From Anaeromyces robustus (taxonomy: Eukaryota; Neocallimastigomycota; Neocallimastigomycetes; Neocallimastigales; Neocallimastigaceae), in contig MCFG01000299.1 of NCBI GenBank assembly GCA_002104895.1, forward strand, positions 23,363 to 87,362: a stretch of 64,000 nt of DNA. The letters are read 5' to 3'. Shown one piece after another: positions 9,231 to 39,499 of the stretch (the first letter of the stretch is position 1; each line of letters opens with the position of its first letter). The translations under genes were made by a program, and so were the position numbers. Below the pieces are notes generated by a model. It was not told the DNA's origin and did no database searches. It was given only the letters and a program-made list of their open reading frames with translations.

Positions 9231-10074
9231 TAAACCTTATTAGTATATCAATAACCAATTATATTATAACAAATATTTAAAAGGATTTTAGTATAAAGAA
9301 TTAATTTTGAATCGATTAAAACACTATCGTTTTAACAATTTAAATCGTGTTTTTAAAGTTAATCTTCATGTAATAAATATTAAAACAAAATAAATAAAAG
9401 TTATTATTTGTAACGGAACGGTTGTTCCAATATTACAATTGACACCAAAATTTGAAGTAAACACAAACAAAATAAAATTTAAAATAAAAGATACTTATTG
9501 CAATATCAGAACACCTTTCCTTTGTTAACCTGAAAGGTCGGTGTCGAGATATATATATTAGTAAGATTTAGTTTTAAGTTTTATTTTATTTTTATTTAAA
9601 ATATGTTTTATTAGAATTTAGTTTTATTAATTATTAAAAATTAATAATAACTAATCTTTGTAGTATTTCAAACTACTTATGAATTAATTATTACTAATAT
9701 ATATAAAGTTATAAAAGAATAAAAGCACAAAGAAAAATATTTTAACTAAAGATTTTACACCTATTAATACTTTTTGCGGAAAAATAGTTTTAAAATTAAA
9801 AGTTCATAAAAAATAATAAAAATTGCTAGAAACTAAGATATTTTGATATAAAATGAATCTCATAGAAAAATAAAGAAATATTATATAATTTTTTCTTAAA
9901 GTTTCTAATTTTATTCCATGTAATTCTATAAAGAAATACAGAAATAAAATACAGAAACAAATACAGAATAAAATACAGAAATTTATAATAAATAAATTTA
10001 AAATAAAATTTTTATAAAATTTGGAACAAGGTGTGAGTCGAACCCAGAGTGTTCGCCCAGATGGTCATAGTTAC

Positions 10075-10768
10075 TGTTAAGTTTCCAACTGGATTATTTT
10101 CTAATTTAAATAAGTCTACTAGGTCGAATGACTAATTATATAGTTTTTATAATTAAATAGTTTTTATAATTAAATAATATTTAAATAATAACTAAATTAA
10201 TTGTAATGCAAATAACACAATATTTATTTAATAATAATAATAACACTTTAAGATTAACTTTTTAATAGTAAATTTTATTTAAAAATAAGATATTGATAAT
10301 ATTAATATAACTATATAATTCAGGTGTTAATAACCTTACAAAGAACATTAAATATAACTTTATGTTATGTTCTTTTATACTTTGTAAGTTTGATAATAAT
10401 AATATAAAATATAATATAAAATATTAATACATTAATTTAATACATTAATTTAAAGTGATACGTTAACGTATAATATAATTAATAATTTGTAATATAATAA
10501 GTTATTAATATCGATATTAAATAGTAATAAAATTAATATATTATTCAATATAATTGAATATATATAAATAATATATATATTAAAATATATTATTAGATTA
10601 TTTAAATAATCTTAAATTATAATATTTAAAATAAAATATTATAATAATAATTATTATATATAATTATTATAAAAAATTATTAATAATTATTATAATAAAT
10701 AATAATATTATATATCAAAATAATTGAAATTATAAATTCTAATTTCAATTGCACTTGATGTCTTGACA
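10075..10768 (-). repeat. 3' LTR of the complete Ty3/gypsy element
   Basis: 694 bp, starts TGTTAAGTTTCC and ends CTTGATGTCTTGACA. Contains TATAAAAG and GTAAGGTTATT (10329-10339, minus strand) as in the 5' LTR. Flanked outside by GTTAC. Confidence 0.95.
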
Positions 10769-10786
10769 ACGCCCTCTCCTAAAAAA
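10769..10786 (-). promoter_or_regulatory. polypurine tract
   Basis: In the sense direction AGGAGAGGGCG lies directly before the 3' LTR, the usual position of the primer for plus-strand DNA. The flanking internal sequence (ATCGGATTCCAGACGATTGTC) matches 58218-58240, next to another LTR-like end. Confidence 0.8.
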
Positions 10787-11100
10787 TCGGATTCCAGACG
10801 ATTGTCTAATAATAAATAATATATAAAATTGATATATATAATTTTTTGAAATTTTTTGAAATTTAGATTTCAAAATTTTTAAGTGTCAATTTAACAATCT
10901 TAGAAACTTTCGAGTGGCCATTTCGAAAATTTCAAAATTGTTATTTTGTGACCAAAATAAAATTTTAATATAAAAAATATATGTAAAAACAATGTTTATA
11001 ATATTTTTAAGAATTTTTGTGTTTTAAAATGTTGAAAATTGAAATTTTGAAATTTTTTGAAATTTCAATTTCGAAATTAAATTGTTAATTTTGTGAAATT

Positions 11101-11409
11101 TAAAAAATAAATTTTTTAATAATTGTTGTAGGATGTATAAAAATAAATTTTTAATTAAAAATAGTTAAAATTATTGAATTTAAAAATTTTTTAATAATTG
11201 TTGTAGGATGTATAAAAATAAATTTTTAATTAAAAATAGTTAAAATTATTGAATTTAAAAATTTTTTAATAATTGTTGTAGGATGTATAAAAATAAATTT
11301 TTAATTAAAAATAGTTAAAATTATTGAATTTAAAAATTTTTTAATAATTGTTGTAGGATGTATAAAAATAAATTTTTAATTAAAAATAGTTAAAATTATT
11401 GAATTTAAA
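11101..11409. repeat. 75-bp tandem array inside the Ty3/gypsy 3' region
   Basis: The mark GTTGTAGGATG recurs at 11125, 11200, 11275 and 11350, an exact 75-bp period; the units look identical. Non-coding, between pol and the 3' LTR. Confidence 0.9.
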
Positions 11410-11441
11410 AATTTTTTAAATTTTGAAATTTCAATTGTGAT

Positions 11442-11735
11442 GGAAAATGGTCAATTGAAATTTTGAAAAAATTTTTTGAAATATACTATAAGTAAAAAAT
11501 ATAATAAAATAAAAATTTAATAAAAATAATTTTTTTTTTTTTTTTGGAAAATGGTCAATTGAAATTTTGAAAAAATTTTTTGAAATATACTATAAGTAAA
11601 AAATATAATAAAATAAAAATTTAATAAAAATAATTTTTTTTTTTTTTTTGGAAAATGGTCAATTGAAATTTTGAAAAAATTTTTTGAAATATACTATAAG
11701 TAAAAAATATAATAAAATAAAAATTTAATAAAAAT

Positions 11736-11786
<51 letters not shown>
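11442..11786. repeat. 104-bp tandem array and long T-run
   Basis: GGAAAATGGTCAATTG recurs at 11442, 11546 and 11650 (104-bp period). Each unit ends in a T-run; the last run is about 50 T long and abuts the pol stop codon (a poly-A run in the sense direction). Together with the 75-bp array and AT-rich filler it makes a 1-kb untranslated 3' region. Confidence 0.88.
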
Positions 11787-11789
<3 letters not shown>

Positions 11790-11792
11790 TTT

Positions 11793-14700
11793 TTAATTAT
11801 AACTGATACTAGTATATGTTCTTCCATTTTTTAAATATTCTAAATATATTCTTTGATTTCTTGGGTTATCTTCAACTTCACTAGAAGGAACCCAATTAGA
11901 CGCAGTTCTATATTTATATCTTACTCTATATTCATAACATTTCTTCTTATAATTGGTTCTAAAATCAGATATTTCTATAATATCTTTAATTGATTCTTCG
12001 TGAGAATTTCTTTTAATAAATTCAGGAGGAGTTGGAATAAAAGGCTCTAACTGTGAAACATGGAAAATTGGATAATGTTTTGGAAAAGGGGACTTTCTAA
12101 TATCTATTTTATAATTATTATTCTTTAAAACTTCAGTTACTTTATAAGGTCCATATTTACAAGGAGCTAATTTTGAACTATCTTCTATATTCAGAGAAGG
12201 TGGCGTCTGAATCCAAACTCTATTTCCAACTTCAAAGACAGGAGGTTCCATTCTTTTCTTATCTGCGTGTCTTTTATATAGTTCTTTAGATCTTAATAAC
12301 ACTTCTTTAATATGATTAAAGTTAACAATTAAGTCTTTAATAATTTTTCTATTTGTATCTATATCTGGAAGTAAATAATATTCATCCATAGAAGGGTGGA
12401 AGCCATAATTTATAAAGAAAGGTGTTTCTTTTGTTGATTCATTAACAGAGTTGTTATACGCAAACTCAGCGAGGTGTATCCAATCAATCCAATCATCATG
12501 ATAATAAGCTCTAGAATACGCTCTAAGATATTGTTCTATAAAAGAATTGGACCTTTCAACTTGTCCAACAGTTTCATGATGGTCGGTTGTAGCTATTTTA
12601 GTAGTTATACTTAAGAATTCCATAATATCTTGCCAAAGTGCACTTGTAAATTGTGATCCACGGTCTGTATAGATGTCACTTGGAAGGCCGTGTAGTTTAA
12701 AAATATTTTCTATGAACGCTTTTGCAGTTTGTTTTGCGTCTGGTATTTGCTTAAATGGAATAAGGTGGATCATTTTTGAAAACCTATCAACAACCACCAT
12801 TAACACTGTATATCCTTTAGAAGGAGGAAGGCCACATAGAAAGTCAATTTCTATAGACTTCCAAGGTCTCTCTGGAGTTTCTAAAGGTTGTAAGAAGCCA
12901 TATTTTCTATGTCTATTGTGCTTATTTCTTGCACAACTTTCACAAGAATTTACAAATTTGGTAACGTCATCTTTAATTTTGGGCCACCAGAAGTTACGTA
13001 GAATAAGTTCAAGTGTCCTCCTGATTCCAAGATGACCAGCGGCAGGCTTCTCGTGATATTTGGTTAAAATCTCCAAACGCATCTTTTCAGGAATATAAAT
13101 TAAATTATTATATAAAATTAAATCATCTTTCATTACAAACTTATTCATTTTTCTAAAAGGTCTATAGTTATAATCATTTTTTGCATTATTAGGGCTGAAG
13201 TAAAGTCTAATATCATCGGCGGTAGCATCTGTTTTAGTTTCTTCTTTGATTCTTTCTAAAAGGTCGCTTACCACACCAATATAACTTGGAACTTCTTTAA
13301 CATTTTTTATATCTAAAATGTATTCTTCTTTCTCTTCTTTATTATCTTTTATATAATCAGGTCTACGAGAAAGGCTATCTGGCTTTCCATTCTTGTTTCC
13401 TTGGCGGTAGATTAATTCAAAGTCATACTCTTGGAAAAAGAGATGCCATCTATGTTGCCTTTGATTACCGATTTTTCCACCTAAAGTATAAATTAAATTA
13501 CGGTGGTCGGTATAAACTACAACTTTATGTTTTGCACCTAATAATAGGTGTCTCCATGTGGCAAAAGCATCTCTAATTGAAAGAAGTTCTTTATCTGTAA
13601 TTGTATAATTCAACTCTGCATCATGTAAACTTCTTGAATAATATGCAACTGGATGTAATATTCCTTCACTATCTTTTTGTGATAAGATAGCTCCAATTGC
13701 AAAATTACTAGCATCACATTCAACAATAAATTGTTTGCTAGTATCTGGATGCATGAGTATTGGCGCAGAAGTCAACTTCTTTTTTAATTCTTGGAATGAT
13801 TTTTCACATTTATCATTCCATTTAAATTTAACATTCTTTTTTGTTAAGTTATGTAAGGGTTTTGCAATATTTGCAAAACTTTTAACGAATCTTCTATAAT
13901 AATTACAAAGACCAAGGAATCTTTGTACATCTTTAATACATTTTGGTTGTGGCCAATCTTGCACAGATTTTATTTTCTTTGGATCTGTAGCCACACCATC
14001 ACCAGATAAGATATGTCCTAAAAACTCTACTTTAGGAAGATCAAATTCACACTTTTCTAATTTAGCATATAAATTATTTTTTAATAACGTTTCCAAAATA
14101 GTGTGAACTTGTTTATGATGTTCTTCCAAATTATTAGAATATATTAAGATATCGTCTAGATAAAGGATTACTGATTTCTCTAGGAATGGTCTTAAAATAG
14201 AATTAATAAATGATTGAAAAGTTGCAGGAGCATTTTTTAATCCAAAAGGCATTACTAAATATTCATAATGCCCATAATTTGTAATGAAGGCGGTTTTATA
14301 TTCATCACCTTCTTTAATTCTAATTAGATTATACGCAGAACGTAAATCTAATTTTGTAAAATATTTGGCTCCTTTAACTTTATCAATAATATCAGTAATT
14401 AATGGAAGAGGGTAGGAATTTCTAATGGTCACCGCATTTAATTTTTTGTAATCCACACATAACCGAAGAGAACCATCTTTCTTCCTTTGGAAAAGCACAG
14501 GGTACCCAGCTGGAGATTCTGAAGGGCGAATGAATCCTTTCTTCAAATTTTCTTCTATATATTTCTTCAAAGCTTCATTTTCTTCTTCAGTTAATTTGTA
14601 AATTGGGCCATAGTGTAGAGAAGCGTCCTTCTCCAGCACTATTTTACAGTCAGTTAAGCGGTGTGGTGGTAGTTTATCAGCTTCTTTCTTGCTGAAAACA

Positions 14701-15020
14701 GTAGCTATATCTCGATATTGAATAGGAACTTTTTCAATATCGAAATCTTCCTCTTCTTCATCTTCTTCAAGATTTTCAGAAAAGAATGAAAGAACTAATA
14801 AATTATAATTATTCTTATTTTTCTTTTTCTTTTTATTATTTTTTAAATGATCTTTTAATGAAAGAACATTATATTTAACAATTAATTTATTATTGGAATT
14901 ATTTTTATTATTTGAAAAATTTTTATTATTATTAAAATTATTAAAATTTTTATTATTTGAATTAAATTTATTATATAAATTATTATTATATTGCAATATA
15001 TTATGATTATTATAAAATTT
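11793..15020 (-). CDS. pol: Ty3/gypsy Pol: reverse transcriptase, RNase H, integrase
   Basis: Copies element RNA into DNA and integrates it. The frame opens at 15020 without an ATG start that fits, so it is probably made as a fusion after pro; residues below are counted from 14996. An Asn-rich linker (1-65) is followed by RT (about 100-330; LDL at 216-218, YLDD at 279-282), RNase H (Asp427, Glu470, Asp497, Asp540), an integrase zinc region (His648, His655, Cys685, Cys688), DDE residues Asp718, Asp778 and Glu814, the HVSQLEPF motif and a chromodomain-like Tyr/Arg-rich C-terminus (about 1010-1055). All catalytic residues are present and there are no stops: full length for a gypsy Pol. The stop codon abuts the T-run at 11736-11786. 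Confidence 0.95.
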   Translation of the reverse strand, partial: KFYNNHNILQYNNNLYNKFNSNNKNFNNFNNNKNFSNNKNNSNNKLIVKYNVLSLKDHLKNNKKKKKNKNNYNLLVLSFFSENLEEDEEEEDFDIEKVPIQYRDIATVFSKKEADKLPPHRLTDCKIVLEKDASLHYGPIYKLTEEENEALKKYIEENLKKGFIRPSESPAGYPVLFQRKKDGSLRLCVDYKKLNAVTIRNSYPLPLITDIIDKVKGAKYFTKLDLRSAYNLIRIKEGDEYKTAFITNYGHYEYLVMPFGLKNAPATFQSFINSILRPFLEKSVILYLDDILIYSNNLEEHHKQVHTILETLLKNNLYAKLEKCEFDLPKVEFLGHILSGDGVATDPKKIKSVQDWPQPKCIKDVQRFLGLCNYYRRFVKSFANIAKPLHNLTKKNVKFKWNDKCEKSFQELKKKLTSAPILMHPDTSKQFIVECDASNFAIGAILSQKDSEGILHPVAYYSRSLHDAELNYTITDKELLSIRDAFATWRHLLLGAKHKVVVYTDHRNLIYTLGGKIGNQRQHRWHLFFQEYDFELIYRQGNKNGKPDSLSRRPDYIKDNKEEKEEYILDIKNVKEVPSYIGVVSDLLERIKEETKTDATADDIRLYFSPNNAKNDYNYRPFRKMNKFVMKDDLILYNNLIYIPEKMRLEILTKYHEKPAAGHLGIRRTLELILRNFWWPKIKDDVTKFVNSCESCARNKHNRHRKYGFLQPLETPERPWKSIEIDFLCGLPPSKGYTVLMVVVDRFSKMIHLIPFKQIPDAKQTAKAFIENIFKLHGLPSDIYTDRGSQFTSALWQDIMEFLSITTKIATTDHHETVGQVERSNSFIEQYLRAYSRAYYHDDWIDWIHLAEFAYNNSVNESTKETPFFINYGFHPSMDEYYLLPDIDTNRKIIKDLIVNFNHIKEVLLRSKELYKRHADKKRMEPPVFEVGNRVWIQTPPSLNIEDSSKLAPCKYGPYKVTEVLKNNNYKIDIRKSPFPKHYPIFHVSQLEPFIPTPPEFIKRNSHEESIKDIIEISDFRTNYKKKCYEYRVRYKYRTASNWVPSSEVEDNPRNQRIYLEYLKNGRTYTSISYN

Positions 15021-15720
15021 TTATTATTATTTTTATTATTATAATTTGATGAATTCTTATTGGTTGAATTTTTATAAAATTTTTTTGTAAAATTTTTTGT
15101 TAAATTTTTATTAATAAAATTTTTTTTCACTTTTTTATTATAAAAATAATTTTTTGAAATTTTTTGATTTAAAATACTTTTTGAAAAACTTTTGTTTTTA
15201 TTTAAAAAATATGAATAATTTAAGTTAGAATATAAATAATTATTATTATAATTATAATGAATTTTGTATTTTTGCATAAATTTATTTCCTATTAATAATT
15301 CAATAGGAATATTATCGGTTATTAAAAACTTTTCTTCAAAATAAACAAAATGAAAATTATTATTTAATTTTAATTTTAATTGAAATTTTAAATTTATATA
15401 TTGATTTATTGTTGTTGTAGCTCCAGAAATACCTTTAATTATAATTTTTTTTGATAAAGGTTTTGGAGTTACATTTAATTTTTTGATAAGCTTATTGTTT
15501 ATAAAATTACATAATGAACCACAGTCTAACATAGATTCACATGTAATTTTATTATTTTGGTTTTTGTTTACATCATTTTTATTTTTACTTTTTGTGGGAA
15601 AATATGTGGTAAAAATAAAAAATGATGTGGGTAATTTCCCGCTTGATATTACATCAAAATTTGGGAAATTATAATTGATTATTTTTGAATTTTGGGACTC
15701 CAAAGGAAGTCCATAACTTA
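14882..15720 (-). CDS. pro: Ty3/gypsy aspartic protease, -1 frame from gag
   Basis: Processes the polyprotein. Read in the -1 phase from gag across 15718-15727, so it needs no start of its own. The active-site motif is LDCGSLCNFI: the catalytic Asp and Gly are there but the usual Ser/Thr between them is Cys. A flap-like ISGATT and a late LLIGNKFM motif complete the retropepsin pattern. The C-terminal 100 residues are an Asn/Lys/Ile-rich low-complexity tail that overlaps pol by about 140 nt in another phase. The other protease remnants in the window have DSG or DTG, so DCG is particular to this element. Confidence 0.82.
14963..14969 (-). promoter_or_regulatory. possible -1 frameshift site, pro to pol
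   Basis: A AAT TTA, in the pro phase, is the only canonical X XXY YYZ heptamer in the pro/pol overlap (14882-15020), and a -1 slip enters the pol frame. No G+C-rich hairpin follows and AT-rich DNA yields such heptamers easily, so the site is tentative. Confidence 0.45.
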
Positions 15721-15727
15721 GTTTTTT
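15695..15727 (-). promoter_or_regulatory. -1 ribosomal frameshift cassette, gag to pro
   Basis: The slippery heptamer A AAA AAC (15721-15727, in gag phase) directly precedes the gag stop TAA (15718-15720). After an 8-nt spacer comes a hairpin, GGACTTCC-TTT-GGAGTCC (15695-15712), conspicuous in this AT-rich DNA. A -1 slip continues straight into the protease frame. Heptamer, spacing and stem follow the established retroviral rules. Confidence 0.85.
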
Positions 15728-16836
15728 GTTTTATTTTGATTTTTATTGTTGTTATTATAATTATTATAATTATTTTTATTATTATTATTATAATTATTAT
15801 TATTATTATTATTATAATTATTATTATAATTATTGTTATAATTATTATTATTATTATTATTTCTACTATTAAAATTATAATTTGAATTCTTCTTTTTTAT
15901 ATTCTTGCTACCACTACTATTTAATTTAATTCTACCTTTAATAGTAAGAGAATTTTCTAACAAAATACACTTAGTAAATATTGATTCTAAGGTAGAAGGG
16001 AATTCTTCCATTTGTTCAATTTCTTCTTGATATCTAGGATGAAGCCCATTATAAAAGAACATAGCAAGAGCTTCTTCACTCAAAGAAAGACCACGAGAAT
16101 GAGATCTAAACTCTTCTATATAATTGTTTATCTTTCCGTAAGTATGTTTAATTTTAGTAAGCTGAATTTTTGCTAATTTTTTGCTGGCAACATCTGAAAA
16201 GCTTTTTCTAATTTCATTAATTAATTCAGCCATGGAAGAAGGATCATTAGCGTTATACTTAGCCAAGTACCAATTTCTTGCGCCATCCCTTAAGCGAGAT
16301 TTTATAAAGTTTATCTTCACTTCTTCTTGAACTGTATTATTAGGATAAGTTTTAAAAGTATCTTCACACAACTGACAAAATAGATCAGTGTCAGTTGATT
16401 TACCAGTAAAGAATCCAGGTTCTGGCACTTGATTCAAATAAGTGGTCATGGGGTTTCTCATAATAACATCGTTGTCAACATCACGTTGAGTAATGTTTGA
16501 TCTTGTTTCGATGTTATTATTAGGTCTTGGTGTTTCGGCACGTTCGGTAGGAATATCTACAAACACATCAGGCTCTTGAGCAGGAGTTTGACTATTGATA
16601 AACGAACTAATTTTCCCTATTTCTTGTAAAATAACATCGTTGTTATTCTGGAGAGTAGCAATGTGACTTTCTAACTGAGTTTTAAAATTATAAAATTGAT
16701 CTGCAGAAATATAACTTTCAGTTACAGTTTTAATTATATGTTCTGCAGTATTTTTTGCTTCTTCTCTTATTGTTAAGACATCTTGAACGGTAGCAAGATT
16801 ACTAGTATTATCTTCACGAGCAGAAAACATTGTCAT
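15718..16836 (-). CDS. gag: Ty3/gypsy Gag
   Basis: Particle-forming structural protein of 372 residues. ATG at 16836, only 32 nt inside the 5' LTR. A heptad-like N-terminal third is followed by a Retrotrans_gag-type domain (about residues 150-290; motifs LFCQLCEDTFKTYP, RDGARNWY and FYNGLHPRYQEEI). There is no CCHC zinc knuckle. Instead the last 60 residues are Asn/Tyr/Lys-rich low complexity and basic, which may bind RNA. Homologous to the broken gag at 60750-61444. Ends at the frameshift cassette. Confidence 0.92.
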   Translation of the reverse strand: MTMFSAREDNTSNLATVQDVLTIREEAKNTAEHIIKTVTESYISADQFYNFKTQLESHIATLQNNNDVILQEIGKISSFINSQTPAQEPDVFVDIPTERAETPRPNNNIETRSNITQRDVDNDVIMRNPMTTYLNQVPEPGFFTGKSTDTDLFCQLCEDTFKTYPNNTVQEEVKINFIKSRLRDGARNWYLAKYNANDPSSMAELINEIRKSFSDVASKKLAKIQLTKIKHTYGKINNYIEEFRSHSRGLSLSEEALAMFFYNGLHPRYQEEIEQMEEFPSTLESIFTKCILLENSLTIKGRIKLNSSGSKNIKKKNSNYNFNSRNNNNNNNYNNNYNNNYNNNNNNNYNNNNKNNYNNYNNNNKNQNKTKN

Positions 16837-16854
16837 TCAAGGTAGTAACCAAAC

Positions 16855-16868
16855 TAGGGTAAGGTTAT
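16855..16868 (-). promoter_or_regulatory. primer-binding site, Tf1-like self-priming
   Basis: In the sense direction ATAACCTTACCC follows the 5' LTR end (..CTTAACA) with no gap. It does not fit a tRNA 3' end (no TGG at the border). With the last LTR base it is complementary over 11 nt to GTAAGGTTATT inside the LTR (17123-17133), which lies where the transcript should begin. This is the arrangement known from Tf1 of fission yeast, whose mRNA 5' end primes its own reverse transcription. Confidence 0.75.
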
Positions 16869-17562
16869 TGTTAAGTTTCCAACTGGATTATTTTCTAATT
16901 TAAATAAGTCTACTAGGTCGAATGACTAATTATATAGTTTTTATAATTAAATAGTTTTTATAATTAAATAATATTTAAATAATAACTAAATTAATTGTAA
17001 TGCAAATAACACAATATTTATTTAATAATAATAATAACACTTTAAGATTAACTTTTTAATAGTAAATTTTATTTAAAAATAAGATATTGATAATATTAAT
17101 ATAACTATATAATTCAGGTGTTAATAACCTTACAAAGAACATTAAATATAACTTTATGTTATGTTCTTTTATACTTTGTAAGTTTGATAATAATAATATA
17201 AAATATAATATAAAATATTAATACATTAATTTAATACATTAATTTAAAGTGATACGTTAACGTATAATATAATTAATAATTTGTAATATAATAAGTTATT
17301 AATATCGATATTAAATAGTAATAAAATTAATATATTATTCAATATAATTGAATATATATAAATAATATATATATTAAAATATATTATTAGATTATTTAAA
17401 TAATCTTAAATTATAATATTTAAAATAAAATATTATAATAATAATTATTATATATAATTATTATAAAAAATTATTAATAATTATTATAATAAATAATAAT
17501 ATTATATATCAAAATAATTGAAATTATAAATTCTAATTTCAATTGCACTTGATGTCTTGACA
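16869..17562 (-). repeat. 5' LTR of the complete Ty3/gypsy element
   Basis: 694 bp, the same as 10075-10768 by eye. In sense order: TGTCAAGACATC.. (U3), TATAAAAG at 17166-17173, and 40 nt later GTAAGGTTATT (17123-17133), the likely start of R. The segment around the TATA box has inverted repeats (CTTACAAAG / CTTTGTAAG, AGAACAT / ATGTTCT). Ends CTTAACA beside the primer site. Confidence 0.95.
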
Positions 17563-17616
17563 GTTACTAACCACTAGACCATGGTTACTATTTTACTAAT
17601 TGAGAGATTCGTTACA

Positions 17617-18070
17617 TTATTAAAACCAATAACAAATAATAAAATTCTATTTAAGTGTACAAAATCGTTTAGGAGAAGATAGAAATTCTCATACACGTAG
17701 TGTTGTCGAACAGATCGAAGTTCGCTTAAAAGTTGAATTTTAAATTAAAACACTAGCTAGAAGCCATTGTGCAAAACCCTTTTGGGTATACAGCTTAAGT
17801 GATCCACAACTCATAATTGAGCGAGGATTTAAAATTCAAACACTGCGGTTAATGCGCTTATCGGGACATCTATAAGATTCACCTTATTTATATAGCTTTA
17901 TAATTTTATTTAAAGGTTTTAACGATCCTTTCATATTAATACTACGCCGGTTTATTTAAAAGTTGTAAGGCAAAGTAGTATTGTAAATATTGTAATTAAT
18001 TTGTTAATAATAATAATAATATAATAAAATTTCATTAATAACTTTAATTAATTTTCTATAATCCCTGGTG
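17617..18070. other. non-coding stretch with higher G+C
   Basis: Flank of the R2 copy A. Slightly richer in G+C than the window and contains an imperfect inverted pair (TTGAATTTTAAAT near 17733, ATTTAAAATTCAA near 17828). No frame of note. Confidence 0.4.
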
Positions 18071-21712: not shown

Positions 21713-22013
21713 TAAAGAATTATTATTGGAAATATTTCAGCATTTGATTCGGAAACATCCTTCATAGGAAGCTCCACTATAAATCTCAGATTGAATGAAA
21801 AGGAAGAAAAAATTAATTCAAAATTAAAATCTGAAACAGGAATGCAAGAAAATTCATTGGAAGTGGGAAGATCAGTTATGAAGTCCATTGATATACAAGT
21901 CCAAGGGCGTCGGGAATTTCCAGAGGTTTTAAAAATCCATAAAGTTTGTGTTTAGTATCTTTTGAGCGGGAACAAATTTCGCAAGAACGCACATAGTCTT
22001 TAATATCTTCTTG
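21713..22013 (-). pseudogene. Ty3/gypsy integrase remnant
   Basis: Minus strand reads SQEDIKDYVRSCEICSRSK (second Cys pair of the zinc region), then LYGFLKPLEIP, then after a +/-1 shift RPWTCISMDFITDLP with the first catalytic Asp, and later MKDVSESNAEIF. Gypsy integrase from zinc region to the start of the DDE core, with at least two frameshifts. The R5 element interrupts it at about 22012. Confidence 0.75.
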
Positions 22014-22386
22014 GGAGAGTTACATTTCGCAATATTGAATTTTGAAATGGGGCACATAATTATAAATAATTAAATAAATAAAAATATAATATATAAATAA
22101 ATAAAATAACAAAACTATTTATTTTTTTTTTTATTTTTTTAATTAATAATATTTAATATTCTTTTTTTATAATATTTTAATAATATTGAATTTTTTTGAA
22201 TATTTTTTTTATTTAATATTTTTATTTAATAATATTGGATTTTTTGAATATTTTTGAATATCTTTTTATTTAATATTTTTTATTTAAAATAATAATATTA
22301 TTATTTATTAATAAATATATTAATATTTTTCAAACTAGCCTAATTCAATGATAATTAAAGAATTTTAATTATCATTATTGAGTTAT

Positions 22387-23101
22387 TGTAACGGAACGGT
22401 TGTTCCAATATTACAATTGACACCAAAATTTGAAGTAAACACAAACAAAATAAAATTTAAAATAAAAGATACTTATTGCAATATCAGAACACCTTTCCTT
22501 TGTTAACCTGAAAGGTCGGTGTCGAGATATATATATTAGTAAGATTTAGTTTTAAGTTTTATTTTATTTTTATTTAAAATATGTTTTATTAGAATTTAGT
22601 TTTATTAATTATTAAAAATTAATAATAACTAATCTTTGTAGTATTTCAAACTACTTATGAATTAATTATTACTAATATATATAAAGTTATAAAAGAATAA
22701 AAGCACAAAGAAAAATATTTTAACTAAAGATTTTACACCTATTAATACTTTTTGCGGAAAAATAGTTTTAAAATTAAAAGTTCATAAAAAATAATAAAAA
22801 TTGCTAGAAACTAAGATATTTTGATATAAAATGAATCTCATAGAAAAATAAAGAAATATTATATAATTTTTTCTTAAAGTTTCTAATTTTATTCCATGTA
22901 ATTCTATAAAGAAATACAGAAATAAAATACAGAAACAAATACAGAATAAAATACAGAAATTTATAATAAATAAATTTAAAATAAAATTTTTATAAAATTT
23001 AGAACAAGATGTGAGTCGAACCTAGAATGTTCGCCCAGATGGTCATAGTTACTAACCACTAGACCATGGTTACTATTTTACTGATTGAGAGATTCGTTAC
23101 A
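22387..23101 (-). mobile_element. R2 element copy B, complete (715 bp)
   Basis: Ends TGTAACGG and CGTTACA; GTTAT is duplicated at 22382-22386 and 23102-23106. In the sense (minus) direction: TGTAACGAATCTCTC, then a tRNA-like head with A box TGGTCTAGTGG (23056-23066) and B box GGTTCGACTCA (23012-23022) 44 nt apart as in a tRNA, a body with repeated ACAGAAA-type units, and a tail ending CCGTTCCGTTACA. No reading frame. TG..CA ends plus a 5-bp duplication point to a retroviral-type integrase; the head points to Pol III transcription. Either a solo LTR or a TRIM-like unit. Confidence 0.85.
23012..23066 (-). promoter_or_regulatory. tRNA-like Pol III promoter of R2 copy B
   Basis: A box TGGTCTAGTGG matches the TRGYNNARNNG consensus fully; B box GGTTCGACTCA differs at the last base from GGTTCGANTCC. 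The tRNA fold itself is decayed, so this is a promoter rather than a tRNA gene. Confidence 0.75.
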
Positions 23102-23666
23102 GTTATATTTATATTTTTAGAATAATTATAACAATCAATTAATTATAATTTATAATTTTTGTGATCATCTTCATTTGGTATGATTTATATTTATTTAAAT
23201 CAAATAAACAATTAAACCATAATTCAAGAATATCATTTTTATTATAACAATTTTTAATAAGGCTCGAATTCAAGTTTTTAAATTTTCTTCCATTTTATAT
23301 TAAAAATTTTTCAAATTAAAAAAATTTTATAAATATTTTTAATTTTTAAGTGATTATTTATTTATTATTTATTATCATTTTTTTAATAAAATATTTACAT
23401 ATATTGTTATATTATTTACTATCTATTATTTTATTTATTATTAAAAAATAAATATATTTAATTTTATTTTGAATTTTTATTATTTTTAATTTTTTTTAGT
23501 AATTAATAAAAAAAGAAATATTTATTTATTTGTTTATTTTCTATTCATTTATTTATATATATATTTTTAGTTTATTTTTTTAAATTATATATTATTTTAT
23601 TTCTTAACGTGGCTTTCTATATTTGTGTTGAATGTGTTGCATTTCGCAATATGATATGGCGCGCAT

Positions 23667-24233
23667 TGTAACAAAACTCAAAATTAGTAATAATATAACC
23701 ATGGTCTAGTGGTTAGTCACTGACCATCAGGCCGAGCACCTTAGATTTGACTCATACTCTCACCACTTTTAAAATAAATCTTTATTTAAATATTTTTATT
23801 ATAAATTTCTGTATTTTATTTCTGTATTTTTATTTCTGTATTTTACTTAGAAATTAATAGAATTCAATCAAAAAATTTTAGACAACTTTTATATTAAATT
23901 TTTCTAATTTTTTCTATAAGATTTTTAATCAAAGTTTCTAGAAATTTTAAATGACTTTTTACAAAGAAAACTATTTTTCCGTAAAAAGTATAAATAGGTG
24001 TAAAATTTTTAAATGATTAATTCTTCGCGATTTTATTAATTAATTATAAGTAATTCAGAATATTACAAAATTAATTAATAAATAAATAATTTTTAAATTT
24101 AATAAATTTAATAAAACAGTTCATTATAAAACAAATTTTCTTATTTCTGATTTACTTTCTGTGTTGACCTATTGGGTCAAATAAGAATAATTGTGTAAAA
24201 ATAATTAAATTATTTTTTTAGCAATTCATTACA
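23667..24233 (+). mobile_element. R2-type element copy C, complete (567 bp)
   Basis: Starts TGTAACAAAACTC and ends ATTACA, with CGCAT on both sides (23662-23666, 24234-24238). The uninterrupted target survives at 43965-43995 (..GGGGCGCATATTAAATTTTTG..). Same plan as copy B but diverged: A box TGGTCTAGTGG (23702-23712), B box GATTTGACTCA (23744-23754), TTTCTGTATTTTATT body, and a tail hairpin TTGACC-TATT-GGGTCAA. Confidence 0.88.
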
Positions 24234-24295
24234 CGCATATTAAATTTTTGCAATGAGGCGCACAAAAAATAAATTAAAAAATGAAATTTTTTTAA

Positions 24296-25460
24296 CACAA
24301 ATATTTAAAATTTATTATTACTTTATAATAAATATTCTTATAATAAATATTATTAATATTCTTTTAATATATATCCATATAATAAATAAATTTTATTAAT
24401 ATCTTATATAAATTCAATATTAAATAAATCTTATTAATATCCTACAATAAATTCTATATCTTTATTAATATTTTAAATAAATCTTATTAATATTTTATAA
24501 TAAACTTTATATATATAATAAATAATATTTTAAATAATATTTTATTAATATTTTTAAGGTTTTTAAAGCTACGTAAAACATACTAAAATCCTTACATTAA
24601 TAAATTTATATATTCTAAACTAAAGTTTTGTAAAATTTTTCTACGTTAATTACGTGTGTAAAGATATTATGCGCCACATTATAATATCTTTAATTGTAAA
24701 TTCAGCCACTTTACAAGTAACTGAATTACATAAAATATTTCTGTAAAATTATTGTGAAACAATAATTTAAATCAATTAAATAAAGTTCAAAACAAAATAA
24801 ATTATTAATTTATTTTGTGAAAAATTAATTTTTTTTATTTTAATTTATGAAATTTTCCATTGTTTTTAAATTCAAAATATATAATAAATATAGTATTAAT
24901 ATTAAAATAATAAATAAATAATAAAAAGAATTAATTCAAATAAAATGGTATTTAGTTTAAATTAGTAATTTTAGTTTACTAAATTTAGTTATGGTTTATA
25001 TTTTATTAATAAATAAAATTTATTAGGACAGTTTTATATAGAAATATATTATAAATAAATAGGAAAAATATATTATATTATAATTAATAAAAAATATAAA
25101 TAGTCAAAAAATTTTATGTAATTTGAAAAAATGTAATTGTTATTAATTTATATTTTTTTAATTCTTAAAATAATTAATAAAATTTATATTTTAATAAAAC
25201 AAATTTTTATTAACGTATTTTTTTAATTTTTGTGTTAGTGTTTTTTTATTTATTGTTGTAATCTATTTAAATAAACCCTTTACAACGTGGTCTTCAATAC
25301 AAAACATATTACAATATGTAATTATAGAAATTATATATGTAAATTCTTATAAAAACAATTATATATATAAATAACTAAACAAGTAGATATATATATATAT
25401 ATTATAAATAAGAAGTTGCATAAAAGAATTTTATTAATAATATATATAATATGTATAAAG
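24296..25460. other. AT-rich non-coding stretch
   Basis: No frame or RNA gene. A motif near 24670 (ATGCGCCACATT) resembles R5 ends and may be a scrap. Confidence 0.4.
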
Positions 25461-37911: not shown

Positions 37912-38341
37912 TGTAACGGAACGATTGTTCCAATATTACAATTGACACCAGAACTGAAAATGAACACGAAAATAAAATAAAAGAAAGTGATTATACTTTG
38001 TAATATCAGAACACCTTTCCTTTGTTAACCTGAAAGGTCGGTGTCGAGATATATATTAGTATAATTTTAATTCATAAGTAGTTCGAAATACTACAAAGGT
38101 TAGTTATTATTAATTTTTAATAATTAATAAAACTATAACTCTAATAAAACATATTTTTAAATAAAAAATAAAATAAATTTAAAATTAAAATTATACTAAT
38201 ATATCTCGACACCGACCTTTCAGATTAACAAAGGAAAGGTGTTCTGATATTACAAAATATAATCACTTTCTTTTCTTTTATTTTCGTGTTCATTTTCAGT
38301 TCTGGTGTCAATTGTAATATTGGAACAACCGTTCCGTTACA
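37912..38341. mobile_element. palindromic R2 derivative (430 bp)
   Basis: Both ends are R2 tails: TGTAACGGAACG.. inwards from each side, arms of about 160 bp that differ at only a few positions. The central 100 bp matches the R2 region next to the tail (AAGTAGTT.GAAATACTACAAAG). The tRNA-like head has been replaced by an inverted copy of the tail. No clear 5-bp duplication. Confidence 0.82.
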
Positions 38342-38995
38342 ATAAAAGCACCCAAACAAAGAAACATCGCCTGGAACCTTAGTGTCGAGGATTCGGAATC
38401 TGCTACCAATTTTTAGTTTCTACTTTTTTTTGGATTCTACCGCCTTTTAGGTCTACTTTTGGATACTACTTCTTTAGTCTTGATCGTAAAATACTACTTT
38501 TTCTTAGTTTCTGGATACTACCTTTTCTAGCAATAATCTTTTAGTCTTAGTTTTTGGATATTTCTACCTTAGTCTTTGATTCCTAGTTATCTACCTTGTA
38601 TAATTCTTAGTTTATAGTCTTGTCTTAGTTCTTGTTTACCTTTGTTTACCTTCCTTGAAAAATTCTAGTATCCATCCTGTCAAGTATCCTTCTTGAATAG
38701 AAATTTTTCTCATTAAGTAAAAATAAAGCACCCAGATTCCACCCGTCCTTAGTTTAACCAAGTTCTTAGAACCACCGCCTAGTTTCACTCCTTAGTCCTA
38801 GCTACTTTACCTTGAATTGCCTTTGAATTACTTAGAAACCTTAGCTGTAGAAAATTTTGTACCACCCTAGAATTAGTTGAAAAAATTTCCTTGTGTAACA
38901 TTTTGAAACATTTCCTTGTACTACCAGAAGATAAAAATAGTGTACCCCATATTATTTAAAAAAGATTTTGTACTACCTTGCCAGTGATATTTTCG
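38342..38995. other. unexplained pyrimidine-rich block
   Basis: Clearly richer in G+C, with C and T concentrated on the + strand. Recurrent words: TTTTAGTCTTAG, GGATACTACC, GTACTACC, CTTAGT. AAAGCACCC occurs at 38346 and again at 38725. No frame on either strand; TAG/CTAG is too frequent. On the minus strand it is a purine-rich leader-like sequence with TTGGTAGCAGATTCC near 38410, which faintly resembles a tRNA primer site. Not identified. Confidence 0.4.
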
Positions 38996-39234
38996 GAAAA
39001 TTAATAAAATTAAATTAAAAAATTAAATAAATTAAATTAAGTGAATGAATATTAATAAATTAAATAAATTAATATAAAAAATTAAGTGAATAAATAAATT
39101 ATAGAATAGATAAATTAAATTATTTTTCAAAAAAATTTTTTTAGTCAAAAAAAAAAAAAAAAAAAAAATTATTTTAGTTATATAGTTTAAAAAAAAAAAT
39201 ATTTTTAAATAATTAATACAAATTTAATAAAATC
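38996..39234. other. AT filler with a poly-A run
   Basis: Ends in a run of more than 20 A near 39147 and AT-rich filler. Confidence 0.5.
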
Positions 39235-39420
39235 TTAATAAGGAGAATCATTCTGAGGATCCTTATTTTTATACTGTCTTTTTTCTTTTATAATTAAATT
39301 TCGAGTTTCACATTGGTCCTCGCTGGTAGGCTCAGACGTAAGTCCTACATTCAGCTCGAGTAAGTTGATAAACTGAAAGAACAGTAGTATGAAATAGAAA
39401 AAATTATTATAATAAAACAA
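39235..39420 (-). CDS. small frame of unknown nature
   Basis: 61 codons: a hydrophobic start, then a charged part (SEPTSEDQCETRNLIIKEKRQ) of higher G+C than its surroundings. The charged part looks like genuine former coding sequence; the hydrophobic start is AT filler. Probably a scrap of a transposon polyprotein; not recognised. Confidence 0.25.
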   Translation of the reverse strand: MFYYNNFFYFILLFFQFINLLELNVGLTSEPTSEDQCETRNLIIKEKRQYKNKDPQNDSPY

Positions 39421-39499
39421 ATTTTTATTTCGTTATTTTATTTTTTTTATTTTAGTGTTTGTGTTATTGTAATATATTTCTTATCAATCTTTTACAGCT

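Follow-up and report, generated by a model that had tools for sequence, protein, structure and literature searches.

The short repeat at 22387..23101 of the Anaeromyces robustus DNA analyzed here (contig MCFG01000299.1; a stretch of 64,000 nt, hereafter the window) combines TG..CA ends and a 5-bp target duplication with a head that carries tRNA-like Pol III boxes, which raises the question of what kind of element it is and what such a head would do in it. The first-pass annotation had proposed a tRNA-promoter counterpart of Cassandra, i.e., a miniature element moved by gypsy proteins and not described before. We found that the 715-bp repeat is a solo LTR (family A), not a free-standing short element, and that it is almost certainly the LTR of a Tf1-like chromovirus and its gag-only relative. 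In the window, where G+C is ~12-32%, it lies on the minus strand between two copies of GTTAT (22382-22386 and 23102-23106). All its internal features are on that strand: the A box (TGGTCTAGTGG; 23056..23066) at LTR positions 36-46, the B box (GGTTCGACTC; 23013..23022) at 80-89, the two starts being 44 nt apart, a TATA-like TATTAATAGG (22738..22747) at 355-364, and a putative self-primer, GTGCTTTTAT (22697..22706), at 396-405, where the R region is predicted to start.

The window holds two further copies, and the duplications TTATT, GTTAT and CGCAT do flank the three, as had been claimed; TG..CA ends with a 5-bp duplication are those of an LTR element, in agreement with the retroviral-type integration suggested for them. 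The copy at 9409-17616 had been taken as complete. Both of its ends and its TTATT duplication are present, but it is split, since an unrelated gypsy element (10075..17562, minus strand; TSD GTTAC) has inserted in its head, between the A and B boxes. The two pieces, also on the minus strand, are sense positions 50-715 of a family A LTR at 9409..10074 (outer duplication TTATT at 9404-9408, inner duplication GTTAC at 10070-10074) and sense positions 1-54 at 17563..17616 (TTATT at 17617-17621, GTTAC at 17563-17567). The nested element belongs to another lineage; its LTRs are 99.86% identical, its gag, protease-like and pol ORFs are separate and on the minus strand, and A and B boxes are absent from its LTR on either strand. 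The remaining copy (23667..24233, plus strand, 567 bp, TSD CGCAT) is a solo LTR of a second group, family B, with an A box at 23702-23712, a degenerate B box (GATTTGACTC) at 23744-23753, a TATA box at 23989-23998 and the self-primer GCGATTTTAT at 24027-24036. The ends TGTAAC..GTTACA, earlier assigned to all three copies, hold for the first two, while this one reads TGTAAC..ATTACA. Likewise, the boxes lie where they had been placed, 42-44 nt apart from ~35 nt into the LTR (starts at 36 and 78, 42 apart, in the family B copy), but the B box of that copy is degenerate. Finally, the 3' part of a family-A-like LTR (38049..38341, plus strand; sense 420-715, 87%) is followed on the same strand by the internal start of such an element (38342..39426; 87.8%), which opens with the primer binding site (PBS) ATAAAAGCACCC, so that an LTR-PBS junction is visible within the window at 38341/38342.

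Full-length 715-bp copies numbered at least 40 in the fungus's own genome, at 98-100% identity (the best 40 of 457 candidates were scored), and six pairs of them lay in the same orientation ~4.4-4.5 kb apart. Paired copies with a PBS and a polypurine tract (PPT) were therefore found, as the first-pass annotation had anticipated, but their interior was not short: the nine paired elements read (L021-L026, L063, L064, L080) measured 5.1-7.7 kb, and all five with listed frames were coding. Their LTRs are direct repeats of 530-715 bp around gag or gag-pol, and both PBS and PPT are present in all three families (A, B, and C). In the elements bounded by paired 715-bp copies, ATAAAAGCACCC stands directly 3' of the 5' LTR and a PPT-like CCTGAAGGAGGACCA directly 5' of the 3' LTR. 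Family A elements (5.1-5.3 kb with their paired LTRs) contain one long internal ORF (614 and 600 aa in the two elements with listed frames); the 614-aa ORF matched the Pfam models Retrotrans_gag and Ty3_capsid, and its aspartyl protease matches were weak, just below cut-offs. Since only residues 1-409 of the family B polyprotein aligned with the internal region of family A (five of five A elements tested), family A is gag-only, without pol; the remaining polyprotein matches at those loci fell in flanking DNA. Two full family B elements (L063 and L064) each have a single ORF, of 1387 and 1384 aa, the latter with Pfam matches to Gag, RT, RNase H, integrase, SH3_Tf2-1, and chromodomain models and a protease match just under cut-off. 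Family C (L080) has 530-bp LTRs, the TSD GGACC and a 1432-aa ORF of the same domain make-up. With the order Gag-RT-RNaseH-IN and a C-terminal chromodomain in one ORF, families B and C are, as judged from sequence, autonomous Ty3/gypsy chromoviruses. The gypsy proteins invoked earlier were thus borne out, as Gag-Pol-chromodomain ORFs in B and C and as Gag in A.

Families A and B share an identical PPT, and their internal regions are ~87% identical over 690 columns on the 5' side and 86% over 198 columns adjoining the 3' LTR, compared to 69% in the gag part (Gag proteins, 64% over 417 aligned positions). Considering the shared PPT and similar internal parts, proteins of the B/C type would very probably mobilize family A in trans. 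Protein relatives stood at 60-81% identity (120 of 173 listed), one of them, 66% identical among the matches listed, being from JGI Orpsp1_1, which we take to be Orpinomyces; together with the low G+C of the window, these matches accord with an anaerobic gut fungus. The two LTRs of an element were 98.9-100% identical in all seven pairs measured (the L024 tandem and L063 were not among them), pointing to recent transposition, and an exact 5-bp TSD surrounded five of these pairs (no match in L022 and L026). L024 is a family A tandem, LTR-internal-LTR-internal, in which an LTR has a PPT before it and a PBS after it.

The census took in 55 distinct full-length LTRs from the fetched loci, including the window's own two (via L001); partial matches, duplicates and copies without five flanking bases were left out. 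All 55 had TG..CA ends. An exact 5-bp TSD was found for 12 of the 18 copies first scored as solo. The other six belonged to a repeated-tail LTR subtype: two were 5' LTRs followed by a PBS, three had an exact TSD beyond the tail and one lacked a TSD. After inspection, an exact TSD was thus on record for 15 of the 16 solo LTRs. In this subtype of family B (L045, L053, L054, L058, L059, L061, L012), the last 50 bp are tandemly repeated two to three times. The TG..CA ends and fixed 5-bp duplication rule out a SINE, for which variable duplications and poly-A-like ends had been named as the mark, and the directly repeated LTRs around gag or gag-pol rule out a Ginger-like or other DNA transposon, the second alternative raised at first pass. 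More generally, the pairing of the LTRs excludes a free-standing element of SINE-like or DNA type.

In each family, the 10 nt that directly follow the LTR can pair with a single site inside it, which lies at the same aligned position in all three (GTGCTTTTAT at 396 in A, GCGATTTTAT at 363 in B, GTGCTTTTAT at 369 in C). Family B differs from A and C in both the PBS and the LTR site, and these changes are compensated so that pairing is kept. When shuffled 10-mers were sought in the same LTRs, they were found in 80, 15, and 8 of 20,000 trials for A, B, and C, respectively. The complementary site lies 38-43 nt below a TATA box (TATAAATAGG; LTR 355, 325, and 326 in the fetched A, B, and C copies), which predicts a Pol II start at the self-primer and places U3, including the head, upstream of it (by 360 nt for the head of family A). 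This layout matches the self-priming arrangement of Tf1 and Tj1, as far as outlined in the available text of PMC4600332, the likeness here being one of complementarity with a predicted mRNA start. Self-priming of the Tf1 type is therefore predicted for these elements with high confidence: the mRNA made by Pol II would very probably begin with the self-primer, a short way downstream of the TATA box, and this 5' end would then prime reverse transcription at the PBS. For a genome of the type found in anaerobic gut fungi, these elements give a clear example of predicted self-priming, which the compensated PBS changes support. Between approximately LTR 140 and 195, an alignment of the U3 of families A, B, and C showed three to four imperfect tandem TTTCTGTATTTTA units, which are perhaps activator sites.

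Read in the same sense as the ORF, the LTR opens with the tRNA-like head, which therefore lies at the start of U3. The Pol III-type A and B boxes reported for it are indeed there: the A box was kept in 55 of 55 census copies and the exact B box in 53, with a spacing of 44 in 53 of 53 by a strict recount. One of the two copies with a damaged B box is the family B copy of the window (23667-24233). The A/B box pattern matched twice in the window and not at all in 100 shuffles of it. Across the 70-Mb genome, GGTNTAGTGGTTAN{24,40}GGTTCGANTC gave 258 matches (53 nt in length among the matches listed) and TGTAACGAA...GGTNTAGTGGTTA gave 229, with no match for the control of either (for the former, the reversed pattern). 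A general A-B consensus had 133 matches in heads, 18 in tRNA loci and two elsewhere in 730,650 bases, a figure that covers the two strands and includes the window as well as overlapping loci; one of the two places elsewhere is a tRNA-Cys gene according to ARAGORN. At L014 3327 (minus strand), there is a further box pair, TGGCTCAACGG...GGTTCGAATC, which is neither a head nor an ARAGORN-called tRNA and possibly belongs to another Pol III-type repeat.

Likeness to a tRNA is confined to the boxes and their spacing, and the tRNA arms are not kept. From the A box to GTTC, the head measures 45 nt, and five of the six host tRNA genes printed measure 43-46 nt (the sixth has no consensus A box at the expected place). 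ARAGORN called no tRNA in the head, and the covariance-model check that had been recommended went against one: Rfam found no tRNA, with E values of up to 1 allowed for window positions 22000-24500 and up to 10 for three loci. A genuine tRNA gene, with its cloverleaf, was rejected on these results. When the heads were folded, B alone was predicted to have a closing stem, and A and C had none. Rfam also gave no 5S match in window positions 22000-24500, L081, L028, or L052. A host tRNA of the same D-loop type was rejected as the source on 0 matches to the two patterns tried. We consider it probable that the head is of tRNA or SINE origin. Integration near tRNA genes was considered and rejected, as 48 loci with flanks of up to 1.5 kb held no tRNA; among 13 loci, a set that partly overlaps these 48, one had a tRNA-Cys gene ~200 bp from an LTR fragment. 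At L030, where such a gene occupies 231-303, the fragment is inverted and abuts another LTR of the same repeat. The tRNA genes themselves are clustered on contigs C219, C378, C151, C213, and C353 of the fungus's own genome, many of the 63 listed tRNA matches lie within tens of kb of one another, and the best-scoring tRNA read was tRNA-Arg(tct).

In an alignment of the A, B, and C LTRs, the head stood out as the 65-column window with the highest conservation: 54 columns were identical and none had a gap. None of the 579 windows that do not overlap it was gap-free, and none reached 54 identical columns. Conserved G/C columns were likewise more frequent in the head (26/32) than in the rest of U3 (25/54; Fisher p 0.0016). 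The test compares three related families only, and identity declines 5' to 3' along the LTR regardless, so that three sequences cannot settle whether the head is under selection. These data bear on the possibility that the head is a passenger, i.e., a piece of a tRNA or SINE that an ancestral LTR acquired on a single occasion and that its descendants carry unused. The head has no tRNA fold, the three families have a single common origin, and the B box has changed in 2 of 55 copies, all of which would fit a passenger; however, the families differ in ~39% of U3 columns while the head is the most conserved, gap-free window, and the boxes are exact at a fixed spacing in A, B, and C. We therefore regard a passenger as unlikely.

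The reading that we prefer, with modest confidence, is that these repeats are solo LTRs of Tf1/sushi-type chromoviruses that have a Pol II promoter and, separately, a Pol III-type head in U3. Each repeat would have been left by LTR-LTR recombination. By its A and B boxes, we infer the head to be a promoter of Pol III type, putatively type 2, which would be an ancient acquisition from a tRNA gene or SINE and may have been kept by selection. Its use by Pol III or TFIIIC appears somewhat better than an even prospect. The first T-run (four or more) occurs at LTR 101-115, and the product of the head would be an RNA of some 80-90 nt, terminated short of the Pol II start; failing that, the head would at least recruit TFIIIC. 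Each LTR would thus have two separate promoters, with the Pol II promoter making the genome. An RNA ended by the T-run would be without R, U5 and the interior, so it could not be a genome copy or transposition intermediate, and the Pol III site might instead have a regulatory, small-RNA or boundary role. A bolder version, in which a gut-fungal clade of autonomous, self-priming chromoviruses has a selected U3 Pol III promoter making an element-controlling RNA (silencing, start-site or boundary control), is tentative and, in our judgment, falls short of an even chance. If it were true, Helenus-like miniatures could arise from such LTRs, besides by SINE insertion into a TRIM.

The boxes might also act as DNA only, binding TFIIIC as a boundary, nucleosome or Pol II enhancer element with no RNA product. 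TFIIIC-only sites occur in yeasts and animals, often without an A box. Retention of the boxes but not of the tRNA body is consistent with such a site, as are the separate TATA box and predicted start downstream; the A box, however, is kept in all 55 copies, and the first T-run falls just past the head, though T-runs are common in such A+T-rich sequence. On balance, this too is improbable. Less probable still is that the head acts as RNA, either within the genomic transcript or as a hairpin small RNA, with the likeness to Pol III boxes being secondary. The A-box half is predicted to fold into a hairpin in B and C, the head directly follows the PPT, and its fold z-scores are -1.09 (A), -2.93 (B) and -2.00 (C), but the predicted fold of A differs and is not significant, and an exact B box at tRNA spacing is left unexplained. 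A Cassandra/Helenus-like miniature transposing via its own Pol III transcript would have just such a tRNA-like head in its LTR and a 5-bp TSD, but it is very unlikely given the length of the nine paired elements read, the coding content of the five with listed frames, and the T-runs that would stop a Pol III RNA within the first 101-115 nt.

As for known systems, one-ORF Gag-Pol with SH3_Tf2-1 and chromodomain matches likens families B and C to Tf1, Tf2, Tj1, and the sushi type, and the present elements share TG..CA LTRs, a 5-bp TSD, and a PPT adjoining the 3' LTR with Tf1/sushi-type elements; we know of no Pol III-type head in the LTRs of Tf1, Tf2, Tj1, or sushi-type chromoviruses. Family A resembles the TR-GAG type in that it keeps gag and a protease-like part without pol, but the literature on that type, among the matches listed, is nearly all on plants, and to our knowledge no Pol III motif is known in such gag-only elements. 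The claim that a tRNA counterpart of Cassandra was not described fails in its general form, since Helenus (TRIMp3; Kojima 2024, PMC10886601), as presented in the available portions of that paper, comprises TRIMs of 311-1263 bp whose LTRs are tRNA-like and which occur in fungi, animals, and plants, the fungal ones being tied to Copia and tRNA primers. Like Helenus in those portions, the present elements have a tRNA-like LTR with conserved A and B boxes, a 5-bp TSD (in fungi), a PBS, a PPT, and many solo LTRs. For Helenus, as here, the Pol III promoter is putative. Unlike Helenus, they are coding gypsy elements of 5.1-7.7 kb with predicted self-priming, none of families A, B, and C is a short non-coding TRIM, and the motif is present in autonomous elements too. 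The same portions judge a long LTR stretch common to an autonomous partner to be unlikely. They also mention that partial likeness to a tRNA is seen in a fair number of Repbase LTRs, among which there may thus be autonomous cases not yet reported. Cassandra likewise has a Pol III promoter in its LTR but is a 5S-derived plant TRIM (as given in PMC10886601), and no 5S match was obtained here. The Cassandra-like miniature of the first-pass annotation is thus not what the LTR belongs to: the elements are coding, two of their families are autonomous, and they have a TATA box and self-priming site of their own. Among autonomous LTR retroelements, bovine foamy virus makes a ~122-nt Pol III RNA from U3 (available text of PMC5807749); it differs as an animal retrovirus whose product is a pri-miRNA in infected cells and cattle, and we liken it by description, not sequence.

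A literature search at title and abstract level, covering few subscription journals, found no report of a tRNA-like head in autonomous gypsy LTRs, and the available part of PMC8778642, on anaerobic fungi, contains nothing about LTR structure. What is new here, reading from the DNA alone, is a tRNA-like LTR motif in full, self-sufficient elements, such motifs having been known before in tiny TRIMs. Pol III motifs in LTRs were previously tied to tiny elements, and the coding, self-sufficient gypsy elements described here carry one beside an ordinary promoter, so the origin of the miniatures and the role of a Pol III site in LTR elements become testable. Searches with the head pattern and the protein found no relatives among viral contigs. 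Contigs in prokaryote records gave seven polyprotein loci, six in MAGs and one in Streptomyces, none with an LTR pair or A-B combination. The gypsy polyprotein contigs L083-L088, from MAG records of Bacillota, Erysipelotrichaceae, and Methanosphaera, are probably misbinned eukaryotic DNA.
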